From a virus: DNA of 42,841 bases. Below are positions 3-40,604 of the stretch, piece by piece. The notes beneath the pieces are model-generated. The model searched no databases and had not been told where the DNA came from. It saw nothing but the letters and a program-made list of their open reading frames with translations. Where the stretch lies: positions 1 to 42,841 of IMG/VR virus record IMGVR_UViG_3300041432_000006. One strand, given 5' to 3'. The position numbers and the translations under genes were made by a program. Position 1 is the first letter of the stretch; the number at the start of each line of letters is the position of its first letter.

Positions 3-2324
3 TCAATTGCATTTAGCGATGCCAATGTGTTCGATGCCGGCAATACGGCAAGCAAAGTATACAAGAGACATTTTGAAATCCTTGTAGACGATGATGGTTA
101 TACATTCTCTCACGAGCGTGGAAGAATGAATATAAACGGTTCAACCGTTTCTGTTGGCGCACCACAAATTTCTCTTTACAGCAATCCAAATTTGGTAAAT
201 TTCGACATCTACAAAATTTCTCCAAAACTTGTTGGATACATCTACTCTAATGTTAGCAAAATAAGCCTACTTATCAACTCATTCACATCCGATGGCGTAT
301 ATGATGGATACCTTTGCTATTATAATGGCACAAATGCAATTTATCAAGGACCAAATATCATTGGAAAACAAGGTGAAGTTGTAAGATTCTATGATGAAAC
401 GAATATAGATTATATTGATTTCATTTATAGCTTCACTAATACCGCACCAACAATATCAACGCCACAAGTAATCGATATTCAACTTTTCCCAACATTAAGC
501 CTTGACGATGAATTGATGATGCTTGGCACTTGTCAAATAAATGATATTGATAAATCGCTTACTTATTTGAGAGATGAAAGACAATTTGGTAACACCAGCG
601 AAAAACAATTCTCAACATCTGCTCTTGATTATATTGCTGCCCCTACAAGACTTCTAAACGAAAACGGTGTTATAAGGGGCTTTGATATTACTGGCATTCC
701 AAGCAGCCTATCAAATACATTATTTATCAATGGTGGCGAAGCAATTGTAAATGGCAAGATAATTCAAACAAACGCTCAATCAATATCCGTCCCAATAATT
801 GCAGAAGCTATTGGAAATAGTTTGTCAAATCCAAATTATACAATCACTTGGTTCATTTGCGTGAATGATAAGAGCGAAATTGAACTTATCGCATCAACTG
901 ATTTTACCATCGGCAATGCCATTTATGCAGGATTAGACAATACGAGAATATTTTATGCCTTCAATCCAAGTGCCCCGTCGCCAGCTCCTTACGCAATTCG
1001 TGCAACTTATCTTGCTGATCTTGTTCAAAATCAAGAAGATTTGGCGCTAGTTGGCATTCTTACAACAACTGCGTCAGGTTCACCATATACACTCACATCA
1101 TTGCAGACAAGCGGATCAGCATGCGATGCTCGTAGATACATCGGTGGAGGTTATAGCGGTCTTATCTCTCCATTCGTATTAGCAACAAATGGTAGTTTCC
1201 GTTCATTCACAGCGTTAAACAACTGGCTCAATCAATTGACGAGTTTTGTTTCTTCAACTACCAACTCTAATACGCTTGGGAAAACTGTTATCGTGAAGGG
1301 AAATTTCAATATTCTAACACCTGAAACGCTAAACTATTCTGATGTTATTACGTTCCAAGGTGATGGTGGAACTTTTACAATTCAAACTTTAACTGGATTC
1401 AATTTACAAAATAATGTGCTTTTCAAGAATGTAAGATTCAACTACATGTATACTGATGGTTATAATACATCATCTCAAACTTTATGTAATTTAGCCAATC
1501 CTAATGGCTTTGCAGCGTTGCAATGCAATGTAAGTTCAAACACCAACATAGGTTTTGAAGAATGTATATTCAATTCGTCAAATCAATATAGATATGCATT
1601 CATCGGCTTCAACTTCGCGTCTTCAAATTGTTATTTGCAAAATGTTAGAATGGTATATAACAGATTTGAGACCTCATATGCAGCTGACGACCAATTGGCA
1701 GTCATTGCATTCGTAGCGCCAGCAATAGCGCCAACATCATCAACAGGCGCAAGACTAAATAACTGCGTTATTGAAAATAATTATTGCAACAAAAACCAAT
1801 TGATTGTAATAGCATCTCCGTTGGACACTATTACAACGGCTATCAATGATTTGATAGCAGCTACAAATGTAAGCATTGCAGGAAACACTTGCGGAGCCAT
1901 AAATGTAATGGTCAAGCAGGATATGGCTCTTTATAACACACCAAATATAATATTCAATTTAGATAAGCCATCAGATGGTGTGTCAATAGCAAGAAACACA
2001 TGCCGTTATATTTACAGCGGATTCGCAGATGGAAACTTTATTGATTCATCTGGCGACCAAGCAATTACGGACGTTGCGAATGGCTTTATAGTTGGAAACT
2101 TGTCAATCTATAATAATAATGTTTCGTGGATTCACGTAGCATATAGAGTATTGTTTTCTAACGCAAACACACCAACATTTATAGTAAAAGAAAACAAATG
2201 CACGGCATATAACCCAAATTATTTACTGCCTTATTTTCAAAACAGTTTTTCATTGTTCCCAGGATTTACAATTGCCAATTCGGCAAATATAGGCGTATTT
2301 GTGAATAAAGTGATAGGGTACTAA
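3..2324 (+). CDS. Beta-helix tail/virion fibre protein, 5' end outside window
   Basis: The reading frame is open to the left edge with no stop, so the true start lies upstream; the GTG at 27 is only the first possible internal start. About 774 residues are visible. The first ~400 are beta-rich and fibre-like. From about residue 400 (numbered from the GTG) short repeated strands with Asn-rich turns appear (VSIAGNTCG, VSIARNTCR, LSIYNNNVS), as in right-handed parallel beta-helices of the pectate-lyase type found in tail spikes and fibres. Three Asp-Gly-Tyr tripeptides are present. The ORF stops one base before the next ATG, and the beta-helix pattern carries on in that next ORF. Role inferred: host-contact or particle-decorating appendage. 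No catalytic residues recognised. Confidence 0.6.
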   Translation, partial: SIAFSDANVFDAGNTASKVYKRHFEILVDDDGYTFSHERGRMNINGSTVSVGAPQISLYSNPNLVNFDIYKISPKLVGYIYSNVSKISLLINSFTSDGVYDGYLCYYNGTNAIYQGPNIIGKQGEVVRFYDETNIDYIDFIYSFTNTAPTISTPQVIDIQLFPTLSLDDELMMLGTCQINDIDKSLTYLRDERQFGNTSEKQFSTSALDYIAAPTRLLNENGVIRGFDITGIPSSLSNTLFINGGEAIVNGKIIQTNAQSISVPIIAEAIGNSLSNPNYTITWFICVNDKSEIELIASTDFTIGNAIYAGLDNTRIFYAFNPSAPSPAPYAIRATYLADLVQNQEDLALVGILTTTASGSPYTLTSLQTSGSACDARRYIGGGYSGLISPFVLATNGSFRSFTALNNWLNQLTSFVSSTTNSNTLGKTVIVKGNFNILTPETLNYSDVITFQGDGGTFTIQTLTGFNLQNNVLFKNVRFNYMYTDGYNTSSQTLCNLANPNGFAALQCNVSSNTNIGFEECIFNSSNQYRYAFIGFNFASSNCYLQNVRMVYNRFETSYAADDQLAVIAFVAPAIAPTSSTGARLNNCVIENNYCNKNQLIVIASPLDTITTAINDLIAATNVSIAGNTCGAINVMVKQDMALYNTPNIIFNLDKPSDGVSIARNTCRYIYSGFADGNFIDSSGDQAITDVANGFIVGNLSIYNNNVSWIHVAYRVLFSNANTPTFIVKENKCTAYNPNYLLPYFQNSFSLFPGFTIANSANIGVFVNKVIGY

Positions 2325-2325
2325 C

Positions 2326-4167
2326 ATGAGTATTAATACATCACTTACAGGCGTAATTATTGAAGGCAACACATTTGCTTATGGTAATTTTGCAGGAAAC
2401 CCAAGCTCAACGCCATGTGGCTATGATAATTGTATGGTATCTACTGCAGACGCTAATATCAGTAAAAATTACTTTTCAGGGATCAACAATGTTGATACAA
2501 TACCTCTTGTAGTTGAGCCTGGTTCTGGTGGATCACCATCTTGCCTTATTACAAAGAATGTTTTCGTCCGTGGTTCGACAACAGTTCAGGCTTATATAGA
2601 TGTATCCAATGTTGGTACTGACCAAGTCATCGTTGAAAATGAATTTGATCAATATACCACAGATGGCTATAATGATAATAATTTGGTGTTAGTGCCAATA
2701 GGTGGAGCAAATATTCTTTACGAAAGAAACAAAAATCAAACTGCTATAGCACAAATACATAAAGCACCATATAAAATTGGGTTTTCAGCCACGCCAAGCC
2801 TTTGCGCCTTCGATCGCTCTGCTTATACTGGCGATATAGTTTATAATCCTACCACATATTCATCTACTAATGGCTATTTAACTGGATCATTTCCAGGCAC
2901 TTCTCCACATTTCTTCAAGAACGAAGGAATTACTATGAATTATAGCGCTCCATTTTCTAGTGCAAGCGCTGTAAAATTAGTAGGTCAATTTTCAGTTGTA
3001 GATGGTTATAATGGCGTTGGAGTATCGGCGGGTACAATTGGTGTTTATGGTATAAATAGTGGCACACAAGGCTATATATTATTTGGAAATGATAATGTAT
3101 ATTACTTGGCAACACTAAATATTTCTCCAGATAGCACACCATATTTCATTACTTCAATTACATTAGCGACTAATTATAAAGGAACTACAAGCAGTGTTGT
3201 GTCAGCAACATTTTTCCCATTTGAGGCTCAAAATATAAATATATTCAATTTCCCGCTTCCAGGAACATACGCGCTTACCAGTAATCAATCAGCTGTAGTT
3301 GGATCTACTGCTAATTTGACAGTAGGAAGTTTATTGATGTTTAATAACACAACTGCATTGAATGAAATTTTTACAGTGCAAAGTATTGCTGATGCAACAC
3401 ATTTTACTATAAATCCTTCGTGGGGAATAAACACAACCGCACCAAACGCTACTGCTGAAACTGGATTGGCAACGGCAATAGCAAGTTTCTCAATTAATTT
3501 GTCAGAAGCGCTTCCAACTAATGTGCAAGTTATAAGCACAGTTATTGGAGCACTTAACACTGCTGGAAATTCTAATTTGGTGTCAGCAACTTATTATGCT
3601 GAAATTACAAGTGATATAGGCTCAAATCAGAGTATTTATTCTACCGCTATACCTGGAATAACTTTTACATTATCTGCTTCTGCATCTGTAACAGCGTCTA
3701 GCTCAAGCTATCCTGCTGGATTTGGCAATGGCAGTAGCATTTGTTTTAGCACGCAGCCGAATACAGTATATACGGCGCTCAATGTTTCTGGTACTACAAT
3801 AACACTTACAATTCCATATTATGGCACGGCATCATCAACCGCAACAGCGGTATTTTTCAACAATTCTATTTCAGATATAAGCACTTATAATCCGGCATAT
3901 AATGCAACTACTATTGGATTTGGAGATCCTATTTCTCTTTATATTACAGCCAATAATGCAACTGCCACCGTTCCAGTTGCCGCATTTGCTACAAATACAC
4001 AATATCTAAAAATTGATGGCCCTTCAACCGCATATACTGGCACTAATGGTATATTGAGATATAATTTTTTAGAAAATATTCAAATGGCCATTACATCTCT
4101 TCCAGGTGGAACACCATCAAGTTTATTTATATCTGAATCACCACTTGTTGTCAAGTATCGCTGGTAA
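2326..4167 (+). CDS. Beta-helix/fibre protein, continuation of the upstream ORF
   Basis: This 613-residue ORF begins with an ATG one base after the upstream TAA (TAA-C-ATG) and has no convincing Shine-Dalgarno, so it is probably translated by termination-reinitiation. Its first ~150 residues keep the beta-helix rungs of the previous protein (GVIIEGNTF, ANISKNYFS, CLITKNVFV, QVIVENEFD). The rest is Ser/Thr/Ala-rich beta sandwich-like sequence with modules of the kind also found in the sheath and baseplate genes. Two Asp-Gly-Tyr tripeptides occur. It could be a separate subunit or the distal half of one gene split by a frame change. Virion surface role inferred from composition and position; no enzyme motif seen. 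Confidence 0.6.
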   Translation: MSINTSLTGVIIEGNTFAYGNFAGNPSSTPCGYDNCMVSTADANISKNYFSGINNVDTIPLVVEPGSGGSPSCLITKNVFVRGSTTVQAYIDVSNVGTDQVIVENEFDQYTTDGYNDNNLVLVPIGGANILYERNKNQTAIAQIHKAPYKIGFSATPSLCAFDRSAYTGDIVYNPTTYSSTNGYLTGSFPGTSPHFFKNEGITMNYSAPFSSASAVKLVGQFSVVDGYNGVGVSAGTIGVYGINSGTQGYILFGNDNVYYLATLNISPDSTPYFITSITLATNYKGTTSSVVSATFFPFEAQNINIFNFPLPGTYALTSNQSAVVGSTANLTVGSLLMFNNTTALNEIFTVQSIADATHFTINPSWGINTTAPNATAETGLATAIASFSINLSEALPTNVQVISTVIGALNTAGNSNLVSATYYAEITSDIGSNQSIYSTAIPGITFTLSASASVTASSSSYPAGFGNGSSICFSTQPNTVYTALNVSGTTITLTIPYYGTASSTATAVFFNNSISDISTYNPAYNATTIGFGDPISLYITANNATATVPVAAFATNTQYLKIDGPSTAYTGTNGILRYNFLENIQMAITSLPGGTPSSLFISESPLVVKYRW

Positions 4168-4169: not shown

Positions 4170-5015
4170 ATGGCATCAAGCGGCTCCATATTTAAGTCAG
4201 ATTTGCCCAATCTATTCCATGTCGTTCAAAATGATATGATGGAATATCCAAAGGCGATTATAATAGATCATCTTAGGGATCATTTTTCTTATGATAGTAT
4301 ATACCATTACGTTAAGGATGAATACGGGTTCGCCGAAACAATTGACCACACTAACCTTCCTCTAACAGCCGGTCTAAACGATAACACCGTCACCCGTCTT
4401 TTTATTGGAGAAACTTTTAGACAAGATGGAATTATGTATCCTGCCATTCTCGTAAAGCATGGCGGCGCTAAATCTGTTCCAATTTCCATCAATAGAGAAA
4501 AAGGCTCAGTTCAATGGGATATACGTTCCATTCAAGACGGTTATGGAAACGTATCTTTCTATAGAGTGCCTAAATCTTTTATTCTTGCCGGTGCTTGGGA
4601 AGGGTCCATCACCATCGATATCAAAACTAGAAGTCTTCGTAGCAGAGACGATCTTGGTGCCGAAGTAATGCTTTGCATGACCGATATTCTTTACGAATCT
4701 CTAAAACAAGCTGGCGTTGTTTGCAAATTGCCATCCATTAGCGCAACGACTGAAACGGACGATAGAAATGATAAGGTATTTAGCCAAACGGTCACCGTAG
4801 ATATTAGAAATGAATGGCGCAGAGAACTGCCCGTGGAAAATGTCGTAGATGTCATCAATTTCTCTATTGAATTCGGTAGAATACCAAACGGGCCAATAGC
4901 GCCAAACTTGACAATAAATACGAACGCTACTTTTATCGATATTATGAATGGCTATCCAGCAACTCCAATTACAACGCCTATTCCGCCATATGTTGAAGAT
5001 ACTGATAATGAATAA
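4170..5015 (+). CDS. Neck / tail-terminator-like structural protein
   Basis: A 281-residue mixed alpha/beta protein directly before the tail sheath gene, two bases after the preceding stop. The middle has a DLGAEVMLCMTDILYESL helix after a beta-rich half, then a basic-acidic strand pattern (VTVDIRNEWRRELPV), which resembles tail-terminator or sheath-stabiliser proteins (gpU / T4 gp15 type) that cap the tail at the neck. Gene order in many myoviruses (neck or terminator, sheath, tube) supports this. The C-terminus is Pro/Thr-rich and ends acidic. One Asp-Gly-Tyr occurs at 4537-4545. Family assignment is an inference from length, order and secondary-structure impression, not a clear motif. Confidence 0.45.
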   Translation: MASSGSIFKSDLPNLFHVVQNDMMEYPKAIIIDHLRDHFSYDSIYHYVKDEYGFAETIDHTNLPLTAGLNDNTVTRLFIGETFRQDGIMYPAILVKHGGAKSVPISINREKGSVQWDIRSIQDGYGNVSFYRVPKSFILAGAWEGSITIDIKTRSLRSRDDLGAEVMLCMTDILYESLKQAGVVCKLPSISATTETDDRNDKVFSQTVTVDIRNEWRRELPVENVVDVINFSIEFGRIPNGPIAPNLTINTNATFIDIMNGYPATPITTPIPPYVEDTDNE

Positions 5016-5157: not shown

Positions 5158-8019
5158 ATGTCATCAGGCAATATTCCAGGCTTACCACTTGCGCTACCAG
5201 GAGTTTACAGTCAAGTTCAAACATTATCTTCTGCAACTTCTGTACCAGGTGGAATTAGAATTTCTGCCATAATTGGTGAAGGCGCAAGACCTGAAACGAT
5301 TGTAGCTTCTGCATTAGGCGGCGGTAAAGATGGACTTAATTCAAGTTTCTCTAGCACAACTGGTGCAAATGGAACTTACTTTTCACTTCAACTCGCTCCA
5401 GTTATTTCAAATAGAACAACTCTTTATAAAAACGGTATTGCGCTTGTTGGAACCGAAGCTCTTATAAATAGCAGTCCATTTTCATCTGCTTACGATTATA
5501 GGCTTGATATTGCAACTGGCCATATTCAACTTCAATCTTCATCGCTAGTTGATCAAGGTGGTTTATTTTATCGTGTATCTGGAACAAATTCTGGCACCGG
5601 AACAATTTCTCAATTAACACTTGTCGATTCTTTTGCTCCAGAAGAAAACTGGGTAATAAAGTGCACCTCTGTTTCAAAAAATGCTTTAGGACAACCAATT
5701 GCCGGTACTTCAAAGTTTATTGCATCAGGTTCAGTTTCTGGAAACGTTCTAAATGGACTTGGGCAACAAGTTGTTTGGGTATCAAATGGCGTAGTGGTAT
5801 CAAACGGTATCTTGTCATTTGCAATCAACCAAACAGGAACAAATGTTCTTGTGCCTGGTGATTCGTTCGTGGTTCAAGTTCAAAGCGGTGTACTCAATGC
5901 TAATGACTCTCTTACCGCAATTTACATACCAACTCAAAATCTCAACAATCCAGCATTTATTTCCGATAAGTCAATTATCCAAGGCAACTTCGGCGTTCCA
6001 AGTTATTCTGATAATAGGCTTGCTCTTGGTTGCCAATTAGCATTTGCTAACGGCGCACCAGGAATTATGTGCGTTCAAGCAGCCCCACCAGTTCCACGCA
6101 GAACATCTTTTGAATTGGATCAAGATCCAATCAATGCGGAATCTACTAACCAAGATGATTTCATTTTCGCATTGCCAGTTGGTGTTCTTCCAGACCAAAA
6201 CTCACAAATACATTTCTTCGTAACGGATCCATCTACCGCAATTGAAACACAAATTGTGCCAAATGAATTTCCATTCTTTACGCTTGGAACATCTGGCCAA
6301 CCATCGGTAAATACATTCATCTTCGATAATAATGATCCACCAGCTGGAAACGCATATTCATACAGCGTAATTTCTCAAAACGCCGCTGACATCATTGGAT
6401 ACGATGGTTATATCACTCCAGCCGCCGATGGCAATCCAGCCCATTGCTTGTTCGCATCTGCATCAGTCACTTTCACATCTGCCAACGTAGGCGATGTTCT
6501 TCAAGTGTTCGATGCTGATTTTGCCGCTAACAATGCAAACGGCGGGTATCCAGGAACAGGCATTAGCCCATACCCACTAGGAACAGGCTTCCTAATTGAT
6601 AGCGTTGTAAATGGCATGATTGATGGTTATCTTTGCACAGTCAATGCTTCTACATTGGAGTTCGAAGCTCTTACATCAGTTTTCCCAGACTTTACAAACA
6701 TCGGTTCTGGCGTAGCATTCCAAGTTGTCAATCCAGCCACAAATCAAGCAGTTGCTGGTGGAACAGGAACAGACGGTTCTATCGTAGCTTTGCTAAATAC
6801 TGGAGATGCTTACTTCACCAGCGCATCACAAGTAAATTTCGGATCTATATCAGGAATTGATGGCTATCAATTGTTGATTGTAGGCACAGGCGTTGATGAT
6901 GGTTATTACACAATATCAGCTCCATCAGGCGGTCAAATCACAATCTCAAAGACCGTATGCACAGAATACGGACTTAGATTCGAGGTTATTGATTCGCTCA
7001 ACACCGGCAATTTCGTAGTAGTAAATCATAACGTTGTTCCAAACGGAAATACACTTCGTATAACCTACGTTGATTCACGTGACGCTTCATTCTATGATGC
7101 CGGTTGGGAAGCAGCTCTTGCAACCCTTGAAGCGCAAGAAATCGACATTCTCGTCACCTTGCCATCTCAAACAATCTCAATCATTTTCCAAAACGCTTTC
7201 AATCATTGCATCACAATGAGCAGCATTGGAAACAAGAAAGAGCGTGTGTTCTTTACAGGCGCAATCAATGGTCTAACACCAGCCAACTTGACTGGTGCTC
7301 AACTTGCAGCCGTAGAGAGCCTCGGCGTATTTGAAGGCATACCAAATAACGATATCGCAACTCTTCCATCCGATGAACTAGAAGACATCGCTAACTACTC
7401 AGTTGTTGATGCATTCGGTGATGTGGCACAAGCTTATCGTGCAGTGTACTTCTACCCAGATCAAATCATCGTCACTGCCAATGGAAATAACACCGTTATC
7501 GATGGATTCTACCTTGCTGCCGCTGGGGCTGGATATGCTTCAGGCGTTACCAACGTTGCCGTTCCATTCACCAATAAGGTGTTCTCTGGATTAACAATCC
7601 TCAATAACAAGCAATTCTCTCCACTTGTTCTTGGACAATTGGCAGCAGCAGGCGTTTGCGTTCTTCAACCTGTTCAAGGCGGAGGAAATGTTGTTTGGGG
7701 CATCACAACTTCTCAAAGCGGAGCCACTGAAGAACAAGAAATTTCAATCGTGTTCATCAGAGATAGAATTGCTAAGTCAATGAGATCAGGCTTCAGTGGA
7801 TATGTTGGTATCGCAGAAGATGGAAACATAATCGAAACTTTGAGCGCTCGTGCAACTTCATTGTTGAAGGGATTTTTGAATACATTGATTACTGCATATC
7901 AAGATCTTTTGGTTGTGCAAGACTCAGTTGACCCTACACAATACGACATCTCCGTACAAGTACAACCTGTTTATCCCACAAATCGTATATTAATTAGTTT
8001 TTCAGTTGGTGTGTTATAA
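5158..8019 (+). CDS. Contractile tail sheath protein
   Basis: Forms the contractile outer tube of the tail. The 953-residue product ends with the family's conserved C-terminal domain: a helix (LLKGFLNTLITAYQDLL), then DPTQYDISVQVQPVYPTNR and a final ILISFSVGV strand. The N-terminus has the LPGVYSQV opening typical of sheath proteins. The conserved core resumes near residue 640 (ATLEAQEIDILVTLP). Between about residues 400 and 610 lies an enlarged beta-rich insertion with two copies of a TSAS-containing module and four Asp-Gly-Tyr tripeptides (residues 416, 489, 568, 581). In sheath proteins such extra domains project outwards. It is longer than T4 gp18. A Shine-Dalgarno AGAGGAAA precedes the ATG. 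Strong call from the C-terminus, size and the tube gene downstream. Confidence 0.9.
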   Translation: MSSGNIPGLPLALPGVYSQVQTLSSATSVPGGIRISAIIGEGARPETIVASALGGGKDGLNSSFSSTTGANGTYFSLQLAPVISNRTTLYKNGIALVGTEALINSSPFSSAYDYRLDIATGHIQLQSSSLVDQGGLFYRVSGTNSGTGTISQLTLVDSFAPEENWVIKCTSVSKNALGQPIAGTSKFIASGSVSGNVLNGLGQQVVWVSNGVVVSNGILSFAINQTGTNVLVPGDSFVVQVQSGVLNANDSLTAIYIPTQNLNNPAFISDKSIIQGNFGVPSYSDNRLALGCQLAFANGAPGIMCVQAAPPVPRRTSFELDQDPINAESTNQDDFIFALPVGVLPDQNSQIHFFVTDPSTAIETQIVPNEFPFFTLGTSGQPSVNTFIFDNNDPPAGNAYSYSVISQNAADIIGYDGYITPAADGNPAHCLFASASVTFTSANVGDVLQVFDADFAANNANGGYPGTGISPYPLGTGFLIDSVVNGMIDGYLCTVNASTLEFEALTSVFPDFTNIGSGVAFQVVNPATNQAVAGGTGTDGSIVALLNTGDAYFTSASQVNFGSISGIDGYQLLIVGTGVDDGYYTISAPSGGQITISKTVCTEYGLRFEVIDSLNTGNFVVVNHNVVPNGNTLRITYVDSRDASFYDAGWEAALATLEAQEIDILVTLPSQTISIIFQNAFNHCITMSSIGNKKERVFFTGAINGLTPANLTGAQLAAVESLGVFEGIPNNDIATLPSDELEDIANYSVVDAFGDVAQAYRAVYFYPDQIIVTANGNNTVIDGFYLAAAGAGYASGVTNVAVPFTNKVFSGLTILNNKQFSPLVLGQLAAAGVCVLQPVQGGGNVVWGITTSQSGATEEQEISIVFIRDRIAKSMRSGFSGYVGIAEDGNIIETLSARATSLLKGFLNTLITAYQDLLVVQDSVDPTQYDISVQVQPVYPTNRILISFSVGVL

Positions 8020-9108: not shown

Positions 9109-9120
9109 TTTAGAATAATG

Positions 9121-9129
9121 TGATATATA
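9121..9129 (+). promoter_or_regulatory. TGATATATA late-promoter-like motif before tail tube gene
   Basis: An exact TGATATATA lies 47 bases before the tube ATG, just after the HNH gene. The following bases (ATA, a short spacer, then TGTAGGAA) are shared with the motif at 25953, so the resemblance goes beyond the AT-rich core. The leader then carries a GGAG Shine-Dalgarno just upstream of the ATG. Allows strong tube synthesis independent of the sheath and HNH message. Confidence 0.55.
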
Positions 9130-9176
9130 ATAGGATGTAGGAAGATTATACATACATTTGTTTTATGGAGTAGAAT

Positions 9177-9794: not shown

Positions 9795-9837
9795 TTATTT
9801 GGGTTCACTTTTTCTAAATTGTTTTAGTTCATTTTTC

Positions 9838-9869
9838 AAAAGCCTGCGTATATTTTACGTGGGTTTTTT
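9838..9869 (+). terminator. Rho-independent terminator after tail tube gene
   Basis: A 13-pair stem (9838-9850 with 9856-9868, including three G-U pairs) closes a five-base loop, and its 3' arm merges into a run of six T residues. It sits about 45 bases after the tube stop codon and 20 bases before the next promoter motif. It is the clearest terminator in the window and separates the sheath/HNH/tube unit from the chaperone and tape measure unit. Confidence 0.8.
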
Positions 9870-9888
9870 GTTTAATATTCGTAATCCT

Positions 9889-9897
9889 TGATATATA
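9889..9897 (+). promoter_or_regulatory. TGATATATA late-promoter-like motif before chaperone gene
   Basis: An exact TGATATATA lies between the terminator and the chaperone gene, about 34 bases before its ATG. A strong AAGGAG Shine-Dalgarno follows. Position right after a terminator and before a new gene block supports promoter function. Confidence 0.55.
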
Positions 9898-9931
9898 ACC
9901 AATTGAGTGATATTTTCAAGGAGTAGAAAGA

Positions 9932-11112: not shown

Positions 11113-11117
11113 ACTAA

Positions 11118-13421: not shown

Positions 13422-13428
13422 GATATAC

Positions 13429-14271: not shown

Positions 14272-14282
14272 TGTAAGGAAAT

Positions 14283-19208: not shown

Positions 19209-19209
19209 A

Positions 19210-30174: not shown

Positions 30175-33100
30175 TGGCGAATTTGAGAATTACAAATGTG
30201 TTGGTAGTTGATAGTACAACAATTACCGCTTCATTTACAGAAAATGTTTCACCTGAAATAGGGGCAGGGAATATTGTATTCGTTTCTCAAACTGAAGGTG
30301 CGCCATCGCCAGCCGTATTATCTGTTAGCGCCTCGACTAATACTCTAACAATTACAACTCAGCCTCTTACCGCCCAAGCTGCCTATATCATTACCTTCCA
30401 ATCAACACCGGAAGTCAAATTTACCTCGCTAAATGGTGACTCTACTTTATTCCAAGACGGAATAACGAACACCCAACTTATCATTGGGCCATTGGAGCCT
30501 GACAATCCAGTTCAGCAATTTCTTTTGAATTATTTGCAAAATAACATTTACGATGTTAGAAACACCACCACACTCGTAAATTCAATATTGCAAGGTTATT
30601 CAACGATAATGTCAAAAGCATTATATGATATTAGACAAACGAAAAACGAAAATTACATTTCTTTTACCGTTACGGACGAACAAAAATTGCGTGGACCTGG
30701 ACCATTCGATAGATTGCTTGAGGAAAGCGCCTATGAAGTTGTAAGGGTAGGATTGAATCCAACCGGTACCAACGCCACCATGAATGTAAGCAATACGGAT
30801 TTCCAATATTTTCCAATATCACTGCTTGCAAATCCATACTCTGAAATGCTAACAGCTAGCACATCGGATACTATCGGGACATTCAACACCAATGATTTTA
30901 TCATTACCGTATCAAATCAAAATGTATCTATACTTACTTCCGTTATATTTACTTATTCTAGTGCTCTTGGAAATTATTCGTATAACATTCAAGAGTATGG
31001 CTACCAAATCCTCAATTCGGAATACGACCAAGATTATGCATTCTCATATGTGCAACTAAATAATAATCAATTCAAATTGAGTCAATCAATTTTGAGCGAT
31101 CCATTATTTTCGCTTCAAAATATTTCAGGCATTCAAGTTCAATATCAATTCAGAAATTTGGGTAGAATAGTTGATCCAACATCAGTTTCAATAACCACCG
31201 TTCTTCAATCGATTAGAGAAACAATTCCGCCAATAATAAATGTATTCAATTTGGCGCACGCTCCAATAACAGACCAATATGGAAATTCAATCACATCATC
31301 CGGTGTTCAATTCACTGATCCAAATGCAGTAAGTCCAGGCGTTCCACACCCAGCCTTCATAATTGAATTGCCATATAGCCTTAGCGCATTACCTTATGCT
31401 ATTGGTCAATACTCAATAGATTATCCAACAGGCACGGTTTATGTTTATGGTCAAGATGCTACGAATAGCGGGACCGGACCAGAACCTCCACTAGCAACAT
31501 ACTATTATGAATACACCTATATTGCAAACGTAGATTATACTTACGATCCAGATACAAACGATATAGCTGCGCTTTCAAATGGCAGCCTTATAGGAAATGC
31601 AGGTACTATAAATTTCAACTATGAACAAGTTCTAATTCCGGGTGTTGATTACAATGCGGAAGTGCATGAAGAATCACTAACAGAATATGTGGATAATAGA
31701 CTTCTTGCGCTCAATATAGTTCAATCACTAAACGCGCCAATTACAAATGTATTTAGAATATACAATGAAACCTCTGGTGAGATCTATAACATTGTAAGAT
31801 GGTCAAATAACAAGATTTATTTCACATATGTAAATCCACCTAATGTAGAACAACAGCTTGGCGAAAGAGCGAAGTTCAATTTGGTTGTAAATGAAACATT
31901 GTTCGTAAATAGCAAATCAACTAATTCTAATAATTTGCAAATATATACCTGCTTCTTATCGAATAACAACATCATAGCGGCTACGGAAGATTGCATAGGA
32001 TCATCAATCAATACGTCCGTAATATTTTCAGATACCGCAATTTTCATATCAGAACTTTGGTTTGATAGTTCGGGACTTGATACCCAAAACACCAATATAA
32101 ATAGACTTACGAGCATTGGTCAATACGAAATTGACTATACGAATGGCGTAGTATATGTGGCAGTTTCCAATTCGCAATCTATTAATTTAGGAACTATCAG
32201 TTATAAGAGTGATTCAATCGTTCCACAATATCCTCATGTCATTAGCGTTGATGATATCTATTATAGAATAAACTTAATGAATCCGCCAAACAAGCAATTT
32301 CAATATTTGAATTTTGCCGACGGTGAAATAACACCATCAACATTTGACAATTCCGATGAAGCATTCTTGAATGATGTATTGGATGCGCCATATGAAGTTT
32401 TCAATAATCAAATAGGTGCCTTCGTTTCAGATACATTCTATCCAGGAGTATCTAACTCAATAAAGTTTATTCGTGGCATTTATGAATATACGGACTTGCA
32501 AAATAATACAAGCCCAATCAACTTCGCACCAACAGCTACTTTCAATGGAAATGTTATAACTCTTACACCTCTTGAAGGACAAGAATACGCAAAGGTAATG
32601 CATAATAATACAGATGGCTATTATGTAAATCTAGATTTTACGATATTTTACCCATCAGATCAATATATAAATTTTGATATTACAGTTATTAGAATGATTG
32701 ACTCGGCAGAACTATTTGCTGGAGATGGTTATATTACACCAGCCGTATTATTTGATGGTTATATTATACCTAATAAATTATTGCTTACACTCAATAACCC
32801 TAACAAATTTGACAATGTTGTAATAACATACAACATTAGTATAAATGACTATTCAAGAGTAATAGTAGATTACAATAAAGGCGATTATTATATTGATTAT
32901 TCATATTTGGCAGATGAGATAATCATTAGTTATGAGTATGGCGACAACGTTTTAGATTTTAGACAATCAATGACGGTACCAGTCAATACGCAATACTACT
33001 GTACTTACAAAGTCGGTGCGTTGCGTGATGCATTGCTACAAAACTTCGGAACTCTAATCAACATACCGGAACTTGCAACGCTTGATGTAAATCTAGAAAG

Positions 33101-36100
33101 AGAAAGATACCGAGACGCTATCAACGGTGCTATGAGTTCGCTTATAGTTGGGCCAACAATAGCCGCAATGAAAAACCTAGTTCAATCTATAACTCACATT
33201 GAACCAGGCATCATAGAATCTATCTTCCAAGTATGGGCGTTAGGCTCAAGCTTCTTATATCCAAATGGTTTCAATAGTACGGGCACATTCGCCCTTCCTC
33301 CTGGCAAGTATGGCAATGGTGTCGCAATCAACACGCCAGGACAAACAATCACTTTACCTGTATCATCGAACTTGAGATTGGAAAAAGGATCGTTCGAATC
33401 TTGGATCAATCCAACTTGGAATGGCATCGATAATGATGCTCCACTTACTTTCAATATAGTTAGAGATGGCTATAATATTTCTCCTGCCTATGTATTTATA
33501 GGCGCCGCAGAATACCATCCAACATATGATATAAATAATTGCTTTACAATAGATAAAAATGCTAACGCTATTGGGTGCCCAAACAAAAATAAAGATGGTG
33601 TTTTCATTTATTACGCACCAGATGAAAGCAAGTTATTTTACAGATGGTATTGTGATGTTATTGATGGATATAACGATGGATATATGGCCATTACACCAGT
33701 TTCTTATACAATCCAAGTAAAAACTCCTGGACTATTTTATGATGTAAAATCAATCTCATATCCTCAAAACAAAGCCATGAGCATTACATCAGGCAATAAC
33801 GCTATTACTATAAAAATAAATAGTTCTTATAGTATTTGGACTGGAATAAAATTTATCGCTGACACCGAACATTATATTTTAGACTTTGGCAAAAAGGCAA
33901 ATCAAGAGCGGGTATCTATTTACAAAGATCCAAGCGGTTATGTAAGTCTTCGCGTATTCGATAAGTATAACAAATCATATAACATTTCAGCCAATGTTTC
34001 TAATTGGCAAGCAAATCAATGGCATCAAGTAGCAGCGTCATGGACAATCGACTCAAAATTAGGAATGGATGAATTGCATTTGTTTATCGATGGTATGGAA
34101 GTTCCAAATATTATTTCCTACGGTAGCAGAGTAGGTCCATATCTTCACGAAAAGTTTAGAACAATCGATCCAGAAGAAATTGTTGGCGCAGTTCCATACG
34201 ACATAGTTCAAGGTATTGATTTGGCAACTTCAATAGGGTCCAATATTGTTTCATCGTCAATCAATTTTACAGCCTATAATCTTGCTCTTGGAAACATCAT
34301 AACAATAAATGAGCCAGGCTTCAATCCATCAGGATATTCAATATCACAAATAAATGGACAGTCGCTTACATTGAATTTGCCAATGCCAGCAACATTGACA
34401 AATGGTCAATTCGTTATCAATCAAACTGCCCTTATAGTAAAAACGGAAATCAATCTTTATCCAAACATTGCCGTATCAACATTATCTCCATTGGATAATG
34501 GCGAACAAATGTTTGTCAATGATTTGATTGTTGTTCAAGGATCAAATACCGTTCAATCAATATCAAATGATTTCGCTAACTTCAACCCACCAATTTTACC
34601 AGGCTACCTAATCGTAATTGACGGCTATACCCAATTTGCACAAAATTATGTAATACTAAATGTTGATGGGTACTCGCTAACTCTAAACGACAAGATGCCG
34701 GTTGATGGCTATGGGCTAACATATCTTATCTATCCTAACACACCAGTTGAAATACCGGGCGTAAATGCATTGAGACCATCGTACACTATTACGCAAGATG
34801 GCTATTACAACAATGTTCTTACTCTAATAAACAATGTTTATGCCAATGATCTTGTTCTCATAAATACATTGGGTCTAAATCACAGAAGAATTAGACAAAG
34901 CTTCTTCCAATGGAGCAACACCAGCAATGTCATTCAAACAAGAATGCCTGCACCAATCAATCTTGACACAGTCGATATTTATCACGTCTTACTTCAGAAC
35001 ACTTTACTTTACCCACCGAACTTGGTAAATCCAAACAACCCACAACAAAATGCTTATGCTGATGGTTATTGCATGTTGGACGGTTATTTATCTAATTATG
35101 GTTATCAATTCTCAAATGCGAATAATATATCGCAATCATCTACATTCTATCAACCATCCATCACTGCCATTTCGCCAATGCGCGGGCCAGGCAGAACAAT
35201 ATCAGCCAAACTATCAACATCCAATATAAATTTCAATACTACTGATGGATATGGTTTTACGATTACAATCGATGGGTATAATAACATCGGCAATATCATC
35301 GAAACTCTTTCCTTTAGTTGTCCTGGCATACAGCACACAATAAATCAATTTGATGAAATTACAAATATAACATTTGATGGTTATGCTATAAGCCAAACTC
35401 AATCATTTGGTACGCTGCAAATTCAAGAGCGTTATCCAATCACTTATCCAGAAAATAATACAACCATTTATCCAATCATCAATTACAGCTACCCAACGAG
35501 AAGCGGGACAAACTTATATGGCACCGGAACAAATGTAATTACGGATGCATATGGATTTTTCAGCGCTATTGATGTAGGCAACTATATACTTATTCAATCA
35601 CCAGTCAATGCCACAGGAACATACCAAATCCTTGGTATTTCAGCCGATCATTTTAGCGCAACAATTAGTTCTACACTAACTCCATTTACGAATGGTGCTT
35701 ATCAAGTTCTTCGTGCAACCACATATCGAAGCGGTTTGCAAAACGGATTATTCACTCTTGAATATTCTCCAAATGCTGGTGTTCTTTACGCCCTTCAACC
35801 ATATCCATTACAATCTGGTCCATACGAATTCGATTTCTACACTTATCTTGCTATCAAGTTCAGCCCAGTGAGCGGCAATATGTTCCTTGGCACCAACATG
35901 TATGGAAAAGGTTTGCTCAACGGCATTTTGGATGAAGTCAATATCACTTCCACGATGCTTACGGACACAAGAGTTGGCGAAGTGGTGGCAGGCAACACCA
36001 CAACCATCACAAAGGATTTCAACTCTCTTGTTGAATTACAACCTAATGCTAATACACTTACTCTTGCTCATTTTGACGCATTCCCATTCGTCAATGATGC

Positions 36101-37247
36101 TTCCTATTATATTACGGCAAGCAAGCATTTCATTCAAGCCAGCGAAGCTGTAAATGATAACTTCTCACAAAGCCTTTACATCGTTGATAATCCAATCATT
36201 ATTGAAAATAATGGCATCCTCAACTCAAAGGGTCAAGGTACAATAGAATTCTGGGTCAACCCTCTTTTCGACACAGGCAATGATCCAAATTATAGATTTT
36301 ACTTTGATGCTGCCGGCATTGAAATTGAGAAAGCAATAAGCATAAACGATGTGTCAGTTCAAATTCCACAAAACATTGGCCAAGTCATTAGCGTCAAGAC
36401 TCAATTCGGCAACCAACGCATTGATTACTTCGCTGGTGGTAAGGTTTTACCTCTAACCGCAACTACCCAAACCATTCTTTTGAATAGACCTCTTCCAAAC
36501 CAAAACACACCAGTAATCGTTACTTATGTTCCATCAGGACTTCAAGGCGACAGAATTTCCATTTACAAGGATCCTACCGGCTATATCAACTTCGATGTTC
36601 ATGCTAGTGGAATCGATTATGTTGTTCGTTCTCCAATTATATGGCCAAAGGGCACCTGGCATCGCGTAAAAGCGTCTTTCGTTGTCAATAGCACATTGTC
36701 CGTCAATAACTCGGTGCGCCTTTTGGTGGACGGTTATGAGCAAGGAAACGTGTTATTCGGAGAAGGGTTACTCTTTGGCGAACCTCTTATCTTCGGCTCA
36801 ACATTCTCCGGCGTTGGCTCAAACATCCAAGCAGCCATTGCATTCAAGGATTATCTTGGCGAACTTTATATTGGAAGCGACTATACAAAAGAATATGGTG
36901 CGGCAGCCCTTATATCAAATTTCCGCATATCTAATATAGCTCGTCCGGTGTTCGCACCATTCGGAGACAGTATTGATGTAAATTACAACTCTAACACCAG
37001 CATGGCATTCCCAGTCACAAAGGATCTTTACACTACCTTACTATTGAACTTCGACACCATGGTTGTGGAAAACACTGATTTCATTACACTTATCAATAAA
37101 TACTCAGGCTTATATGATTTTACAATAAATGTTTTCGATAATTTTGAATATGTAAGTAGTAGCCCAATTGTAAAAAATATTTTAGAAACTTTGATAAATG
37201 TGTTAAAACCTGGCGTATCAAGGGTATATATCAACTATATAGATTAG
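30174..37247 (+). CDS. Giant mosaic baseplate/fibre protein with LamG-like domains
   Basis: A 2357-residue protein, the largest here. It opens with an Ig-like domain (residues 1-100) and a helical segment (FLLNYLQNNIYDV). It then runs through repeated beta modules. Two concanavalin/LamG-like domains are visible: about residues 1037-1330 (GKYGNGVAINTPG, GSFESWINPTW, then RVSIYKDPSGYVSLRVFD and WHQVAASWTI) and about 2020-2260 (GTIEFWVNPLFD, RISIYKDPTGYINFDVH, WHRVKASFVV). A partial third lies near 1862-1940. Sixteen Asp-Gly-Tyr tripeptides occur, most of them in the middle. The C-terminus looks like a packing domain (ILETLINVLKPGVSRVYIN). LamG-type folds commonly bind glycans, so host-surface attachment is inferred. 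The gene is coupled to the J-like gene by the one-base overlap. Confidence 0.6.
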   Translation: MANLRITNVLVVDSTTITASFTENVSPEIGAGNIVFVSQTEGAPSPAVLSVSASTNTLTITTQPLTAQAAYIITFQSTPEVKFTSLNGDSTLFQDGITNTQLIIGPLEPDNPVQQFLLNYLQNNIYDVRNTTTLVNSILQGYSTIMSKALYDIRQTKNENYISFTVTDEQKLRGPGPFDRLLEESAYEVVRVGLNPTGTNATMNVSNTDFQYFPISLLANPYSEMLTASTSDTIGTFNTNDFIITVSNQNVSILTSVIFTYSSALGNYSYNIQEYGYQILNSEYDQDYAFSYVQLNNNQFKLSQSILSDPLFSLQNISGIQVQYQFRNLGRIVDPTSVSITTVLQSIRETIPPIINVFNLAHAPITDQYGNSITSSGVQFTDPNAVSPGVPHPAFIIELPYSLSALPYAIGQYSIDYPTGTVYVYGQDATNSGTGPEPPLATYYYEYTYIANVDYTYDPDTNDIAALSNGSLIGNAGTINFNYEQVLIPGVDYNAEVHEESLTEYVDNRLLALNIVQSLNAPITNVFRIYNETSGEIYNIVRWSNNKIYFTYVNPPNVEQQLGERAKFNLVVNETLFVNSKSTNSNNLQIYTCFLSNNNIIAATEDCIGSSINTSVIFSDTAIFISELWFDSSGLDTQNTNINRLTSIGQYEIDYTNGVVYVAVSNSQSINLGTISYKSDSIVPQYPHVISVDDIYYRINLMNPPNKQFQYLNFADGEITPSTFDNSDEAFLNDVLDAPYEVFNNQIGAFVSDTFYPGVSNSIKFIRGIYEYTDLQNNTSPINFAPTATFNGNVITLTPLEGQEYAKVMHNNTDGYYVNLDFTIFYPSDQYINFDITVIRMIDSAELFAGDGYITPAVLFDGYIIPNKLLLTLNNPNKFDNVVITYNISINDYSRVIVDYNKGDYYIDYSYLADEIIISYEYGDNVLDFRQSMTVPVNTQYYCTYKVGALRDALLQNFGTLINIPELATLDVNLERERYRDAINGAMSSLIVGPTIAAMKNLVQSITHIEPGIIESIFQVWALGSSFLYPNGFNSTGTFALPPGKYGNGVAINTPGQTITLPVSSNLRLEKGSFESWINPTWNGIDNDAPLTFNIVRDGYNISPAYVFIGAAEYHPTYDINNCFTIDKNANAIGCPNKNKDGVFIYYAPDESKLFYRWYCDVIDGYNDGYMAITPVSYTIQVKTPGLFYDVKSISYPQNKAMSITSGNNAITIKINSSYSIWTGIKFIADTEHYILDFGKKANQERVSIYKDPSGYVSLRVFDKYNKSYNISANVSNWQANQWHQVAASWTIDSKLGMDELHLFIDGMEVPNIISYGSRVGPYLHEKFRTIDPEEIVGAVPYDIVQGIDLATSIGSNIVSSSINFTAYNLALGNIITINEPGFNPSGYSISQINGQSLTLNLPMPATLTNGQFVINQTALIVKTEINLYPNIAVSTLSPLDNGEQMFVNDLIVVQGSNTVQSISNDFANFNPPILPGYLIVIDGYTQFAQNYVILNVDGYSLTLNDKMPVDGYGLTYLIYPNTPVEIPGVNALRPSYTITQDGYYNNVLTLINNVYANDLVLINTLGLNHRRIRQSFFQWSNTSNVIQTRMPAPINLDTVDIYHVLLQNTLLYPPNLVNPNNPQQNAYADGYCMLDGYLSNYGYQFSNANNISQSSTFYQPSITAISPMRGPGRTISAKLSTSNINFNTTDGYGFTITIDGYNNIGNIIETLSFSCPGIQHTINQFDEITNITFDGYAISQTQSFGTLQIQERYPITYPENNTTIYPIINYSYPTRSGTNLYGTGTNVITDAYGFFSAIDVGNYILIQSPVNATGTYQILGISADHFSATISSTLTPFTNGAYQVLRATTYRSGLQNGLFTLEYSPNAGVLYALQPYPLQSGPYEFDFYTYLAIKFSPVSGNMFLGTNMYGKGLLNGILDEVNITSTMLTDTRVGEVVAGNTTTITKDFNSLVELQPNANTLTLAHFDAFPFVNDASYYITASKHFIQASEAVNDNFSQSLYIVDNPIIIENNGILNSKGQGTIEFWVNPLFDTGNDPNYRFYFDAAGIEIEKAISINDVSVQIPQNIGQVISVKTQFGNQRIDYFAGGKVLPLTATTQTILLNRPLPNQNTPVIVTYVPSGLQGDRISIYKDPTGYINFDVHASGIDYVVRSPIIWPKGTWHRVKASFVVNSTLSVNNSVRLLVDGYEQGNVLFGEGLLFGEPLIFGSTFSGVGSNIQAAIAFKDYLGELYIGSDYTKEYGAAALISNFRISNIARPVFAPFGDSIDVNYNSNTSMAFPVTKDLYTTLLLNFDTMVVENTDFITLINKYSGLYDFTINVFDNFEYVSSSPIVKNILETLINVLKPGVSRVYINYID

Positions 37248-37259: not shown

Positions 37260-40200
37260 ATGACAATAAAACTTCCAATATCATCACAGCAAAACTTATT
37301 CTTTGACAGCGAGCAATTAGATTCAGATGATCTAAATCTCGAACAATCATATGTCAATAATATTACGACCAGCCTCATAAATAATCAGGTCGGTAATGGT
37401 GTGGTGCTCAACACGCTTACTCCAAATATCTTATTTGATTCAAATACTTACAATGGATTGTTTGACGGCTACGCCATTACACCATCTAATCAACCATCAG
37501 ATACAAATTACGGTAATCAACTTGAAGTTTCGTTGTCAGATTCACTTGTTGCCGGCAAAAGAACTGTAAAAGTTGCTATAATTGGTTTAGATTTCAATGA
37601 TAATATTCAATATGATACATTTACATTCTATTTGAATGAAAGTCAAATAACAAAAAAGCATTATGTGCGAGTGCTTCTTATTTTGACTAATGATTTTAGT
37701 GGTTTGCCAACTCAATCTTTCAATCTTGGCGGAAGAATTGTTATCAAAGATGCTCAACAACTTTTCGTTTCAAGAGATCCTATCATGGTTTCGCAAGATG
37801 TTGAACCAAGTTTATTTTGGAGAGATTTCTTCGTTCCAGCTGGTATGACTTTTCAAACTTTCCTAACCACATCTCTTGCCAACATTCCTGCGCCATATAA
37901 TACATACAGTGTGGATAGTCTAAATATTTCTACTGGTGTTTTACAAAATACAATCATAAGCGCTGGCGATATTACAACCCAAGTTGGTGAAAAGTTTTTA
38001 GCCACAACAAATAATATTCAAAAAATTACACTTCTTCTTGGTGTGCAAAATCTTGCTCAACCAAGCAATTTAGTTTGGACTGGCGATTTAGTTGTTAGCA
38101 TTTACCCACTTCAATCAACTGTAAATTGCGCAACAGATATAGTACCAGATCTTGCTATCGATTACGATCCGTCAAATATTCCATTAGCTCAATTATCTTA
38201 TGAATATACAGACTTATCCGCCCAGGGTGTCATACTAAATGGAAATCTTCAACCAGTCGATTTCGTATTTAGCAATACATCAGTGGCAGGCGGTAGCGTA
38301 ATTATTCCGGGCCAATATTACGCATTTACAGTAAAGAGACAAGGGGCAGCCAATGTATGTGATTTTCTTATTGGAACGGGCGGAAGCTATAGCACAACAT
38401 CGCGAGTATCCATCTTTTCTGGCACATCTTGGACGGATAATGCGGATCAGGAATTATGGTTTAGAGTATTTCACGACGCTGCAAAAATCACTGATGGGCA
38501 GGCATATGAAACAGGAAAAGGCATCGTAGTCCCAAAGACTCAACTTGACACCACAACAAGCGCACAAGTTGATTATTCTCTTGACAGCATTTCATTCTTT
38601 GGCAATAGCCTTTATTATGGAGTACTTCAAGCTACTACGCTCCCAAGCGGTCAAGTCCAAGATCAAAGAACGGGCAACCTCGTCAATTCACTTCAACAAT
38701 TCGTTCCAACCCTTACATTGGTTAATGCGCTAGGATTGCAAAATTTGCAAACAGCATCCGAACCATTTGTAGTCGGTGTTATCGAAGACGAAAATCAAAA
38801 GTCTAATGCTGGCCCGCAAACTATAAACGCAGCTATCCATGGTTGGACTTACGTTGAGAATCAATTAGTTCTTCCAATAATCACCAATTCAAGCGATCCA
38901 AGATACGATGTAAATGTTGAAGCGCTTGTTGCAAATTTTGATAATGGCGATTTCAACGAAGCTCAAATAGTTCCGGATGGATATAACGCAGCAATCAATT
39001 ACAGAATAGCAAAGACAGAATTAATTACCATGATTTATGGTGATGTTGATGGCGACGGCATTATTACTCAAAATGATTTAGCTCTTATGCAAAATATATT
39101 CGGCGCCAGCCTAAATTCATCGCCGCCAGCAACAACTCAAATGAGTTCAGTCGACGGATATTACACAGTATCTAATGGTTATCCTGTTTATACAAACGGC
39201 TTCGTAAATGATTTATTCGTTCCAATTACATTTAGTATCCTTGATCCATCAAATAATAACTATGCAGTTTGGTCAGCGTCAGACGGTTATTTGCGTGTAA
39301 GCCCAACCAATCCTGGACAAGCGGTATTCAATAGTCAATCAACTAATTTTACAAACACCGCAGCTCCGGGCCCAGATGGATATTTCCCACGTGGAATAGG
39401 AAATTACAATCTTCTAATCCAAACATCGTCAAGCTCGCTCAATGTTGGTCAATTCTCAATTAATGGATATGAAACAATAAATGGCATCACTTATGATGGT
39501 TATATCAACATAAGCAAATTGTATTATCCATCATCAGATAGTATATTGCAAATTTTACGCGCCGATATAAATCAAGACGGACAAATCACAGAGGAAGACG
39601 GATATTTACTTTCTCAATACTTGAATAATGCACCGGCAATTGCTGGCGATACGTTCCCTCCAACACTTTACCCATCATCACTAATTGGAACACAATTCAA
39701 TGTATTGAGATTTACGCTCGAAGAGTTTATTGATAGGGCGGATGATTTCCCATCAACTTCTTTGAGTAGAGCGACTACAGTACACACTCCTCAAGATATT
39801 TTCCTAAATGACACCACGCTTCAAAACGAAGTATTTATTGATGGCTATACTCAACTCTACTCAACTCCAATTATTATAACAAAACAATTTACATGGGAAG
39901 ATTATCTAATTGCAGCAAGTAGTGGAACACCACCAATACCAACTATATTTACAGATCCTTTACCAACTGTTCCGCCTCCCGTTCATACTCCATCAGGCAT
40001 TACTTACCAAACATATCCATTATCAAATACAGATGCATATAATACAAGTATTACTAATGTATTTGCGCCAAATGATATAATTATTGGTAAAGGTGATTTG
40101 AGACGCCCCGATGGCTCTTTCTATAAAGTAGATTTTGAGGTAGGATCTCTTACACTTGAAATACCTCCATCAGTTATGGGAACGGACCAAACAATCAATA

Positions 40201-40604
40201 TATTTGATTATTTCGTAGCAGATAATGGAAATGGTAATGGAATTACAAGATTTGGTTATCCGGCAATGCGTTTCGCAGACTATTCAGTCGTTCCAGTAAA
40301 TGCAATAGCAAATAATCAAGTAAGATTTTCAGTTGCAGTTCAATCGTTCTTTCCACAATTAGACGGTTATGATATGATTGATGGTTATTATGGCGTTCTT
40401 GTTGATGGTAGGATGGGCGTGTATATTGATGACACCACTGGCTGCTTGAGAATAAACTTCGCGAATTTATTTCAATATCCTGTGTCGCCAACATCTATCA
40501 CGAAAATACAGATCGATGTATACTTGAAAAAGGGTGGTTTCACGAACCAACCATTAACTGTTGGAACCACGCAGATGCAAAATTTGTTAGGGCTTATTTC
40601 CTAA
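37260..40604 (+). CDS. Fibre-like virion protein with split dockerin-type calcium-binding repeats
   Basis: A 1114-residue beta-rich protein after the giant mosaic gene, with an ATAGGA Shine-Dalgarno. Two dockerin-type F-hand calcium loops stand out: DVDGDGIITQND at residues 595-606 and DINQDGQITEED at 769-780, each followed by the L-x-x-(Y/I)-(L/F) helix end. True dockerins carry the two loops close together; here ~160 residues lie between them. Ten Asp-Gly-Tyr tripeptides occur, one of which supplies the last calcium ligand of the second loop. The N-terminus (SSQQNLFFDSEQLDSDDLN) resembles attachment ends of other baseplate fibre proteins, and the C-terminus is strand-rich. Likely a calcium-stabilised tail fibre or baseplate appendage. 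Confidence 0.55.
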   Translation: MTIKLPISSQQNLFFDSEQLDSDDLNLEQSYVNNITTSLINNQVGNGVVLNTLTPNILFDSNTYNGLFDGYAITPSNQPSDTNYGNQLEVSLSDSLVAGKRTVKVAIIGLDFNDNIQYDTFTFYLNESQITKKHYVRVLLILTNDFSGLPTQSFNLGGRIVIKDAQQLFVSRDPIMVSQDVEPSLFWRDFFVPAGMTFQTFLTTSLANIPAPYNTYSVDSLNISTGVLQNTIISAGDITTQVGEKFLATTNNIQKITLLLGVQNLAQPSNLVWTGDLVVSIYPLQSTVNCATDIVPDLAIDYDPSNIPLAQLSYEYTDLSAQGVILNGNLQPVDFVFSNTSVAGGSVIIPGQYYAFTVKRQGAANVCDFLIGTGGSYSTTSRVSIFSGTSWTDNADQELWFRVFHDAAKITDGQAYETGKGIVVPKTQLDTTTSAQVDYSLDSISFFGNSLYYGVLQATTLPSGQVQDQRTGNLVNSLQQFVPTLTLVNALGLQNLQTASEPFVVGVIEDENQKSNAGPQTINAAIHGWTYVENQLVLPIITNSSDPRYDVNVEALVANFDNGDFNEAQIVPDGYNAAINYRIAKTELITMIYGDVDGDGIITQNDLALMQNIFGASLNSSPPATTQMSSVDGYYTVSNGYPVYTNGFVNDLFVPITFSILDPSNNNYAVWSASDGYLRVSPTNPGQAVFNSQSTNFTNTAAPGPDGYFPRGIGNYNLLIQTSSSSLNVGQFSINGYETINGITYDGYINISKLYYPSSDSILQILRADINQDGQITEEDGYLLSQYLNNAPAIAGDTFPPTLYPSSLIGTQFNVLRFTLEEFIDRADDFPSTSLSRATTVHTPQDIFLNDTTLQNEVFIDGYTQLYSTPIIITKQFTWEDYLIAASSGTPPIPTIFTDPLPTVPPPVHTPSGITYQTYPLSNTDAYNTSITNVFAPNDIIIGKGDLRRPDGSFYKVDFEVGSLTLEIPPSVMGTDQTINIFDYFVADNGNGNGITRFGYPAMRFADYSVVPVNAIANNQVRFSVAVQSFFPQLDGYDMIDGYYGVLVDGRMGVYIDDTTGCLRINFANLFQYPVSPTSITKIQIDVYLKKGGFTNQPLTVGTTQMQNLLGLIS

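Follow-up and report, generated by a model that had tools for sequence, protein, structure and literature searches.

A clade-wide Asp-Gly-Tyr tripeptide in outer virion proteins of megaphages as a candidate sequon for tyrosine glycosylation

Mycobacteriophages encode glycosyltransferases that glycosylate virion proteins (Freeman et al. 2023, as cited in PMC12619734 and PMC10877033); in the excerpts of the two citing papers, the glycans are placed on capsid and tail tube, at the C-terminal end of the subunits, and no tripeptide sequon is mentioned. Glycosylation of tyrosine hydroxyls is established in bacterial S-layers, with β-Glc-Tyr and β-Gal-Tyr among the linkages (PMC2943079), and Bacteroidetes possess a general protein O-glycosylation system that acts at D-(S/T)-X on hundreds of proteins (PMC8698959). 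Here we describe the over-representation of the tripeptide Asp-Gly-Tyr (DGY) in IMGVR_UViG_3300041432_000006, a 42,841-base virus record with a myovirus tail module, referred to at its full length as the window. The tag appears to be undescribed so far: a full-text search of the literature for 'DGY motif' returned no papers, and one on tripeptide over-representation among the structural proteins of phages gave nothing of relevance.

Re-counting every open reading frame (ORF) of the window gave 40 DGY tripeptides, all in frame, between position 93 and a last copy at 40380-40388. They are distributed over eight proteins: 3 in the fibre-type protein fib1, 2 in a second fibre-type protein (fib2), 1 in a neck-like protein, 4 in the tail sheath, 1 in a membrane-segment protein, 3 in a baseplate J-like protein, 16 in a 2357-aa protein and 10 in a protein with a dockerin module. 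Composition alone predicts 2.3, and 2,000 within-protein shuffles, a null equivalent to shuffling codons, gave a mean of 2.33 (s.d. 1.5) and a maximum of 8, which places DGY at z = 24.7. Among 8,000 tripeptides DGY ranks first for enrichment, and the second-ranked reaches z = 5.6. The remaining DGx tripeptides are modestly above expectation at most, apart from DGP (10 versus 2.5 expected), whose excess arises from three tandem paralogues at 41767-42778 made of the W/Y-rich repeat WYLNGKLHRTDGPA; xGY tripeptides other than DGY show no enrichment except as counts of one. The features of the window, with ORFs called mechanically as the longest non-overlapping frames (a procedure that may misplace start codons and, in relatives, some small ORFs), are:

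3..2324 (+): fib1, fibre-type protein, truncated 5′ at the start of the contig; DGY at 93-101, 303-311 and 1455-1463.
2326..4167 (+): fib2, second fibre-type protein; DGY at 2662-2670 and 3001-3009.
4170..5015 (+): neck-like protein; DGY at 4536-4544, kept in 18 of 21 genomes.
5158..8019 (+): tail sheath with large insertions (PHROG tail sheath match, 6.5e-9); DGY at 6403-6411 (kept in 17 of 21 genomes), 6622-6630, 6859-6867 and 6898-6906.
8050..21607 (+): DGY-free block comprising an HNH endonuclease, g6, g7, g8, the tape measure, g10, the hub (1641 aa), the spike-like g12 and g13; no DGY in the window and almost none in orthologues.
21631..23784 (+): membrane-segment protein; DGY at 22984-22992, kept in 18 of 23 genomes.
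26005..30174 (+): baseplate J-like protein (Pfam Baseplate_J, 9.8e-22); DGY at 27724-27732, 28360-28368 and 28801-28809.
30174..37247 (+): 2357-aa tail protein with a LamG-type domain (Pfam Laminin_G_3, 2.9e-11); 16 DGY, with first bases at 32613, 32724, 32754, 33465, 33663, 33675, 34620, 34665, 34704, 34797, 35061, 35079, 35244, 35271, 35376 and 36729.
37260..40604 (+): 1114-aa tail protein with a dockerin module (Pfam Dockerin_1, 4.7e-8), homologous proteins being present in 19 of 19 records; 10 DGY, with first bases at 37464, 38976, 39153, 39282, 39375, 39495, 39597, 39840, 40362 and 40380.
40652..41779 (+): GT-B (GT4-like) glycosyltransferase (Pfam PF00534, above cut-off); candidate DGY reader.

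An accumulation of this kind could arise at the level of DNA, through the spread of a nucleotide element, codon bias or the duplication of repeats, and the codons TAT and GGT are indeed somewhat over-used inside DGY. However, all 40 plus-strand occurrences of GAYGGNTAY lie in the reading frame (the minus strand has 2), and the window's DGYs are encoded by 11 distinct nine-base spellings. The in-frame restriction and codon diversity exclude a codon- or DNA-level origin, while unrelated flanks and the many sites born by substitution at existing turns exclude repeat duplication, leaving such an artefact a negligible probability. These counts agree, protein by protein, with a preliminary description of the window, which had also judged that chance would give only a few copies, found the codons varied with no out-of-frame copies, and correctly reported DGY absent from the tape measure, hub, spike, gp25-like, HNH and glycosyltransferase proteins. 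Its placement of all four sheath copies within an insertion is likewise borne out by a predicted structure of moderate confidence (pLDDT 66), in which residues 416, 489, 568 and 581 fall in or at the start of strands of a β-rich insertion flanked by better conserved ends.

We then extended the comparison to other phages. The annotated phage collection held no close relative: the gp25-like, 2357-aa and spike-like proteins had no match there, the sheath had one weak match and J had weak matches, the strongest by E-value being to Bacillus phage G (29% over ~290 aa). IMG/VR, by comparison, contains a large clade of relatives on contigs of up to 481 kb. Records of 473, 354 and 406 kb, a 221-kb near-twin of the 473-kb record and a 201-kb record were read whole, and the others over their tail modules. 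Across 23 records, seven tail protein families (fib1, neck, sheath, membrane-segment protein, J, 2357-aa protein and dockerin protein) contain 509 DGY against 32.4 expected, a 15.7-fold excess (z = 84); each fib1 orthologue in the relatives, at 1465-2078 aa, carries 2-11. Inner and assembly orthologues, among them those of the tape measure, hub, spike-like and gp25-like proteins, hold together with the glycosyltransferase 2 DGY over the 23 records, neither of them in the window, against ~15 expected, a depletion that is suggestive rather than independent proof because orthologues share kinship. Proteins with fewer than two DGY in four large records hold 14 versus 16.4, 12 versus 12.6, 5 versus 6.7 and 19 versus 15.3 expected, counts biased slightly low by the choice of proteins according to their DGY number. 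Among the further DGY-rich proteins in the clade, several have PHROG matches of fibre, collagen or virion type and others have none. All 70 dockerin-centred loci exceed the DGY expectation (z of 2.7 to 22.7), down to the most divergent, at 32% identity (13 versus 1.5 expected). The relatives thus support, far more strongly than the window did, the earlier proposal of protein-level selection confined to surface-type virion proteins. A separate observation from these genomes is a 2349-aa collagen-like, Gly-Pro-rich protein that lacks DGY, at L017 (G001:92195-99244) and as a near-twin in G002.

The strictness of the tripeptide bears on whether DGY is anything more than a convenient turn. In the DGY-rich proteins (more than 1,000 distinct contexts), DGY occurs at 17 times its expectation, a figure inflated by choosing proteins with at least two DGY and falling to 10.7 across all long proteins. 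In the same set DGF stands at 1.0-fold, DGW at 0.1, DGH at 0.6, NGY at 1.4, EGY at 0.2, SGY at 1.25, DAY at 1.05 and DSY at 0.3. Across both clade datasets the ranges are 1.0-1.4 for DGF and for NGY, 0.2-0.3 for EGY and about 0.1 or less for DGW. DGY might simply be a favoured β-turn or strand-start solution in fast-evolving, β-rich virion proteins, with no reader at all, a view favoured by the somewhat raised DGT, DGV and DGI (1.4-2.2-fold), by the frequency of other turns (DGV, DGI, DGT, NGN and SGN) at homologous positions and by a mild DGY excess in T4 (10 versus 2.7 expected). Such a preference would raise NGY and DGF as well, yet both stay near 1-fold while DGY reaches 16-17-fold. Seven other phages (T4, phiKZ, Bacillus phage G, Myrna, Phrappuccino, Eggerthella LE2-3 and LR745208), covered by nine structural regions, hold 26 DGY there against ~22 expected, DGY is never the top tripeptide, and the six phages other than T4 show no excess. 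Given this motif specificity, a purely structural origin is very unlikely. The suggestion in the preliminary description that DGYs are converted β-turns is supported for their turn-like context and is not confirmed for the DGQ or NGQ counterparts that it named, homologous sites being mostly DGV, DGI, DGT, NGN or SGN.

DGY sites also turn over. In alignments of the seven families, DGY appears in 170 columns; 107 of these have it in a single genome and about a dozen keep it in most. When the sites are mapped on a tree of the hub protein, which lacks DGY, they require at least 279 gains or losses, a number that depends on alignments that are gappy in fib1 and the 2357-aa protein. Both fib2 positions, for example, are non-DGY in the nearest relative (DGF and NGD). 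The residues that replace DGY are often other turns (DGV, DGI, DGT, NGL and DGS), and, except in the neck, each family retains the glycine at position 2 in ~30-60% of aligned cases. Compared with random columns, the flanks of DGY columns show somewhat lower conservation in the sheath, membrane-segment protein, J and 2357-aa protein. Copies cluster, with 14% of gaps at 12 residues or fewer against 5% at random and spacings of 4, 6 or 8 the commonest. Because DGY is dense, strict in sequence, shifting in position and confined to the outer virion proteins, we infer that it behaves as a sequon or short linear motif that is read in trans: its residue specificity lies far above composition, and its density is held while individual sites come and go.

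The reader of such a motif could be a binding partner. DGY would then be a docking motif for a soluble protein, whether a phage decoration or whisker protein, a chaperone of assembly or a surface protein of the host, that binds many copies on the tail surface. Strict three-residue specificity, site turnover and clustering suit a short linear binding motif equally; whiskers along the contractile tail are known in giant phages, as an excerpt of PMC5259590 indicates for phage CBB; and the dockerin module on the tail makes protein-protein docking plausible. However, no conserved candidate binder was identified, whereas a conserved glycan cassette was, and copies at changing positions in many unrelated folds are better suited to an enzyme whose sole requirement is a short accessible stretch. 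We regard docking as fairly unlikely.

The glycosyltransferase (GT) of the window has a homologue in all 20 of the larger records, downstream of the dockerin gene and usually adjoining it; in two of these the match is split into two pieces. AlphaFold 2 predicts a GT-B fold with high confidence (pLDDT 95). The best Protein Data Bank (PDB) match of the model is 3oy2, the chlorovirus NY2A glycosyltransferase B736L (TM score of 0.71), which is likewise virus-encoded and of GT-B fold and differs in sequence (14% identity over the structural alignment). Next come GT4 enzymes such as PglA and BshA; GT-B/GT4 entries among the PDB matches include 2jjm and 8dqd. In the EX7E motif E265 is invariant and E273 nearly so, and H149-G150 and R182-K183 are invariant or nearly so. 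With its modelled GT-B fold, EX7E motif and conserved donor-site residues, the enzyme is of the CAZy GT4 type. In the relatives the GT is followed by a GT2 enzyme in 17 of 20 records, often with a second GT2, and a homologue of NDP-sugar epimerases/dehydratases is present in 20 of 20, mostly lying a few kilobases or less from the GT; one record has its first GT2 fused to a methyltransferase. The window holds only the first GT before the contig ends. The cassette of the relatives comprises a GT2, a 340-aa protein without a Pfam match, a second GT2 and the NDP-sugar epimerase/dehydratase, and it lies between the tail module and a tubulin/FtsZ-like gene (for example, L222:15997-19799 and L238:7281-9838). 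Every GT locus with a complete dockerin gene is above the DGY expectation, and the GT loci without an excess are contigs with little or nothing upstream of the GT.

We propose that DGY may be a sequon that this megaphage clade displays on its outer virion proteins, at exposed loops, turns and the beginnings of strands. Its most likely reader would be the GT-B glycosyltransferase that the phage itself encodes immediately behind the dockerin tail gene, assisted by the GT2 enzymes and NDP-sugar epimerase/dehydratase encoded downstream in relatives. A sugar attached to the tyrosine hydroxyl of DGY would produce a glycan coat on the tail, baseplate and fibres that might shield the virion or aid adhesion. 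Glycosylation is the most economical reading, and the tyrosine hydroxyl the natural acceptor, because the GT and sugar cassette are kept downstream of the tail genes; the need for tyrosine (DGF at about 1-fold) is compatible with a hydroxyl acceptor and is not proof of one. The trans reading, the identity of the reader and the acceptor residue would each have to be correct, and we judge glycosylation of the DGY tyrosine by the adjacent phage enzyme to be the best explanation, with roughly an even chance of being right. The more general statement, that DGY is a clade-wide sequon for covalent modification of the virion surface by a phage-encoded enzyme, through tyrosine glycosylation with the GT4-type enzyme acting directly on DGY, we hold tentatively, at slightly below even. 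Of the uses offered in the preliminary description, a modification site with a GT downstream fits best because that gene is kept in every tested record and is co-extensive with the DGY trait. Glycan contact by an exposed tyrosine is a poorer fit, since a sticky aromatic surface would not be expected to require Asp and Gly so strictly or to leave DGF, DGW and NGY unenriched.

Sequon-like behaviour leaves the chemistry unnamed. A phage or host enzyme could instead phosphorylate, hydroxylate, halogenate or cross-link the tyrosine, or the Asp-Gly bond could itself isomerise or be cleaved. Asp-Gly bonds are prone to isomerisation, and the clade core genes include a tyrosine-phosphatase-like protein and a flavin-dependent oxidoreductase (in record G006, the phosphatase-like protein and a GidA/Pyr_redox-like flavoprotein are at L226:17605-18357 and L220:15484-16698, respectively). 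The more labile Asn-Gly is nevertheless no substitute, with NGY at about 1-fold, and a partial survey of core genes found no kinase or halogenase next to the tail module, where glycosyltransferases are present in every record. Another covalent change thus appears distinctly unlikely.

Several points weigh against tyrosine glycosylation by the adjacent GT. Since both the GT and the DGY trait occur throughout the clade, their co-occurrence cannot be separated, and that of the GT with the dockerin gene is expected regardless, since the two are neighbours. The glycan cassette could act on DNA, lipids or the host surface instead. Surface exposure of DGY is argued from protein identity, domain position and the moderate sheath model, which is too uncertain for a solvent-exposure calculation. 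Finally, avoidance of proline at +1 is only partly DGY-specific: exclusion at this position initially resembled an enzyme signature (1 of 509, versus 35 of 693 for other DG turns) and was dropped as evidence because DGV, DGI and NGV also avoid proline in a larger set.

Comparison with the described systems places the proposed tag apart from each. As in the excerpted accounts of mycobacteriophages, the GT gene belongs to the phage, is linked to structural genes and would target virion proteins; the reported targets there are capsid and tail tube, whereas here fibres, sheath and baseplate are proposed, the tube-type protein lacks DGY and the tag lies on seven or more other proteins. S-layer glycosylation offers the precedent of a sugar on the tyrosine hydroxyl of a surface lattice protein and differs in its few tyrosine sites per protein, a proposed transfer by oligosaccharyltransferase and the lack of a DGY tag (PMC2943079). 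The Bacteroidetes motif shares a length of three residues and an initial Asp, and one member of the megaphage clade comes from a Chitinophagales (Bacteroidota) metagenome-assembled genome (MAG); its acceptor is a Ser or Thr at position 2 (PMC8698959), where the DGY motif always has Gly and DSY, at 0.3-fold, is no substitute. DGY also departs from the N-X-S/T sequon, NGY being at 1.0-1.4-fold.

That Chitinophagales MAG held the one relative found in bacterial genomes with the GT as query, and a J query found none. Its 383-kb contig JAIXLO010000160.1 (L356; GC content of 26%) carries the same tail module and cassette, with 14 DGY against 1.3 expected. This hints at Bacteroidota hosts for the clade, with a binning error possible.

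If DGY is a modification tag, the decorated faces of megaphage virions could be read from sequence alone, a candidate enzyme with a three-residue acceptor would be named, and a single cloned gene plus a single tail fragment would allow giant-phage virion glycosylation to be tested directly; the tag would amount to a viral protein-glycosylation code. Should the reader turn out to be a binding partner, a surface tripeptide enriched 16-fold across the clade would still be a strong and unexplained rule of virion architecture.

The neighbouring sequence holds further features. Within the dockerin protein, positions 39036-39640 of the window (~residues 593-793) encode two dockerin-type calcium loops, GDVDGDGIITQNDL and ADINQDGQITEEDGYLL, which are ~150 residues apart rather than adjacent; the DGY of the second loop is kept in 15 of 21 genomes. 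One relative, G020 (IMGVR_UViG_3300020180_000010), has a single in-frame TAG within its dockerin-protein match at 58117-61281, which could reflect an error at the record's end or stop-codon reassignment. The HNH endonuclease gene at 8050-9108, which encodes helix-turn-helix segments, lies between the sheath gene and the next tail gene, and related HNH genes occur in relatives at the same site and in many other places. In record G006, inteins that contain LAGLIDADG endonuclease domains interrupt the PhoH-like (L221:16508-18892) and tubulin/FtsZ-like (L222:12932-15736) proteins.

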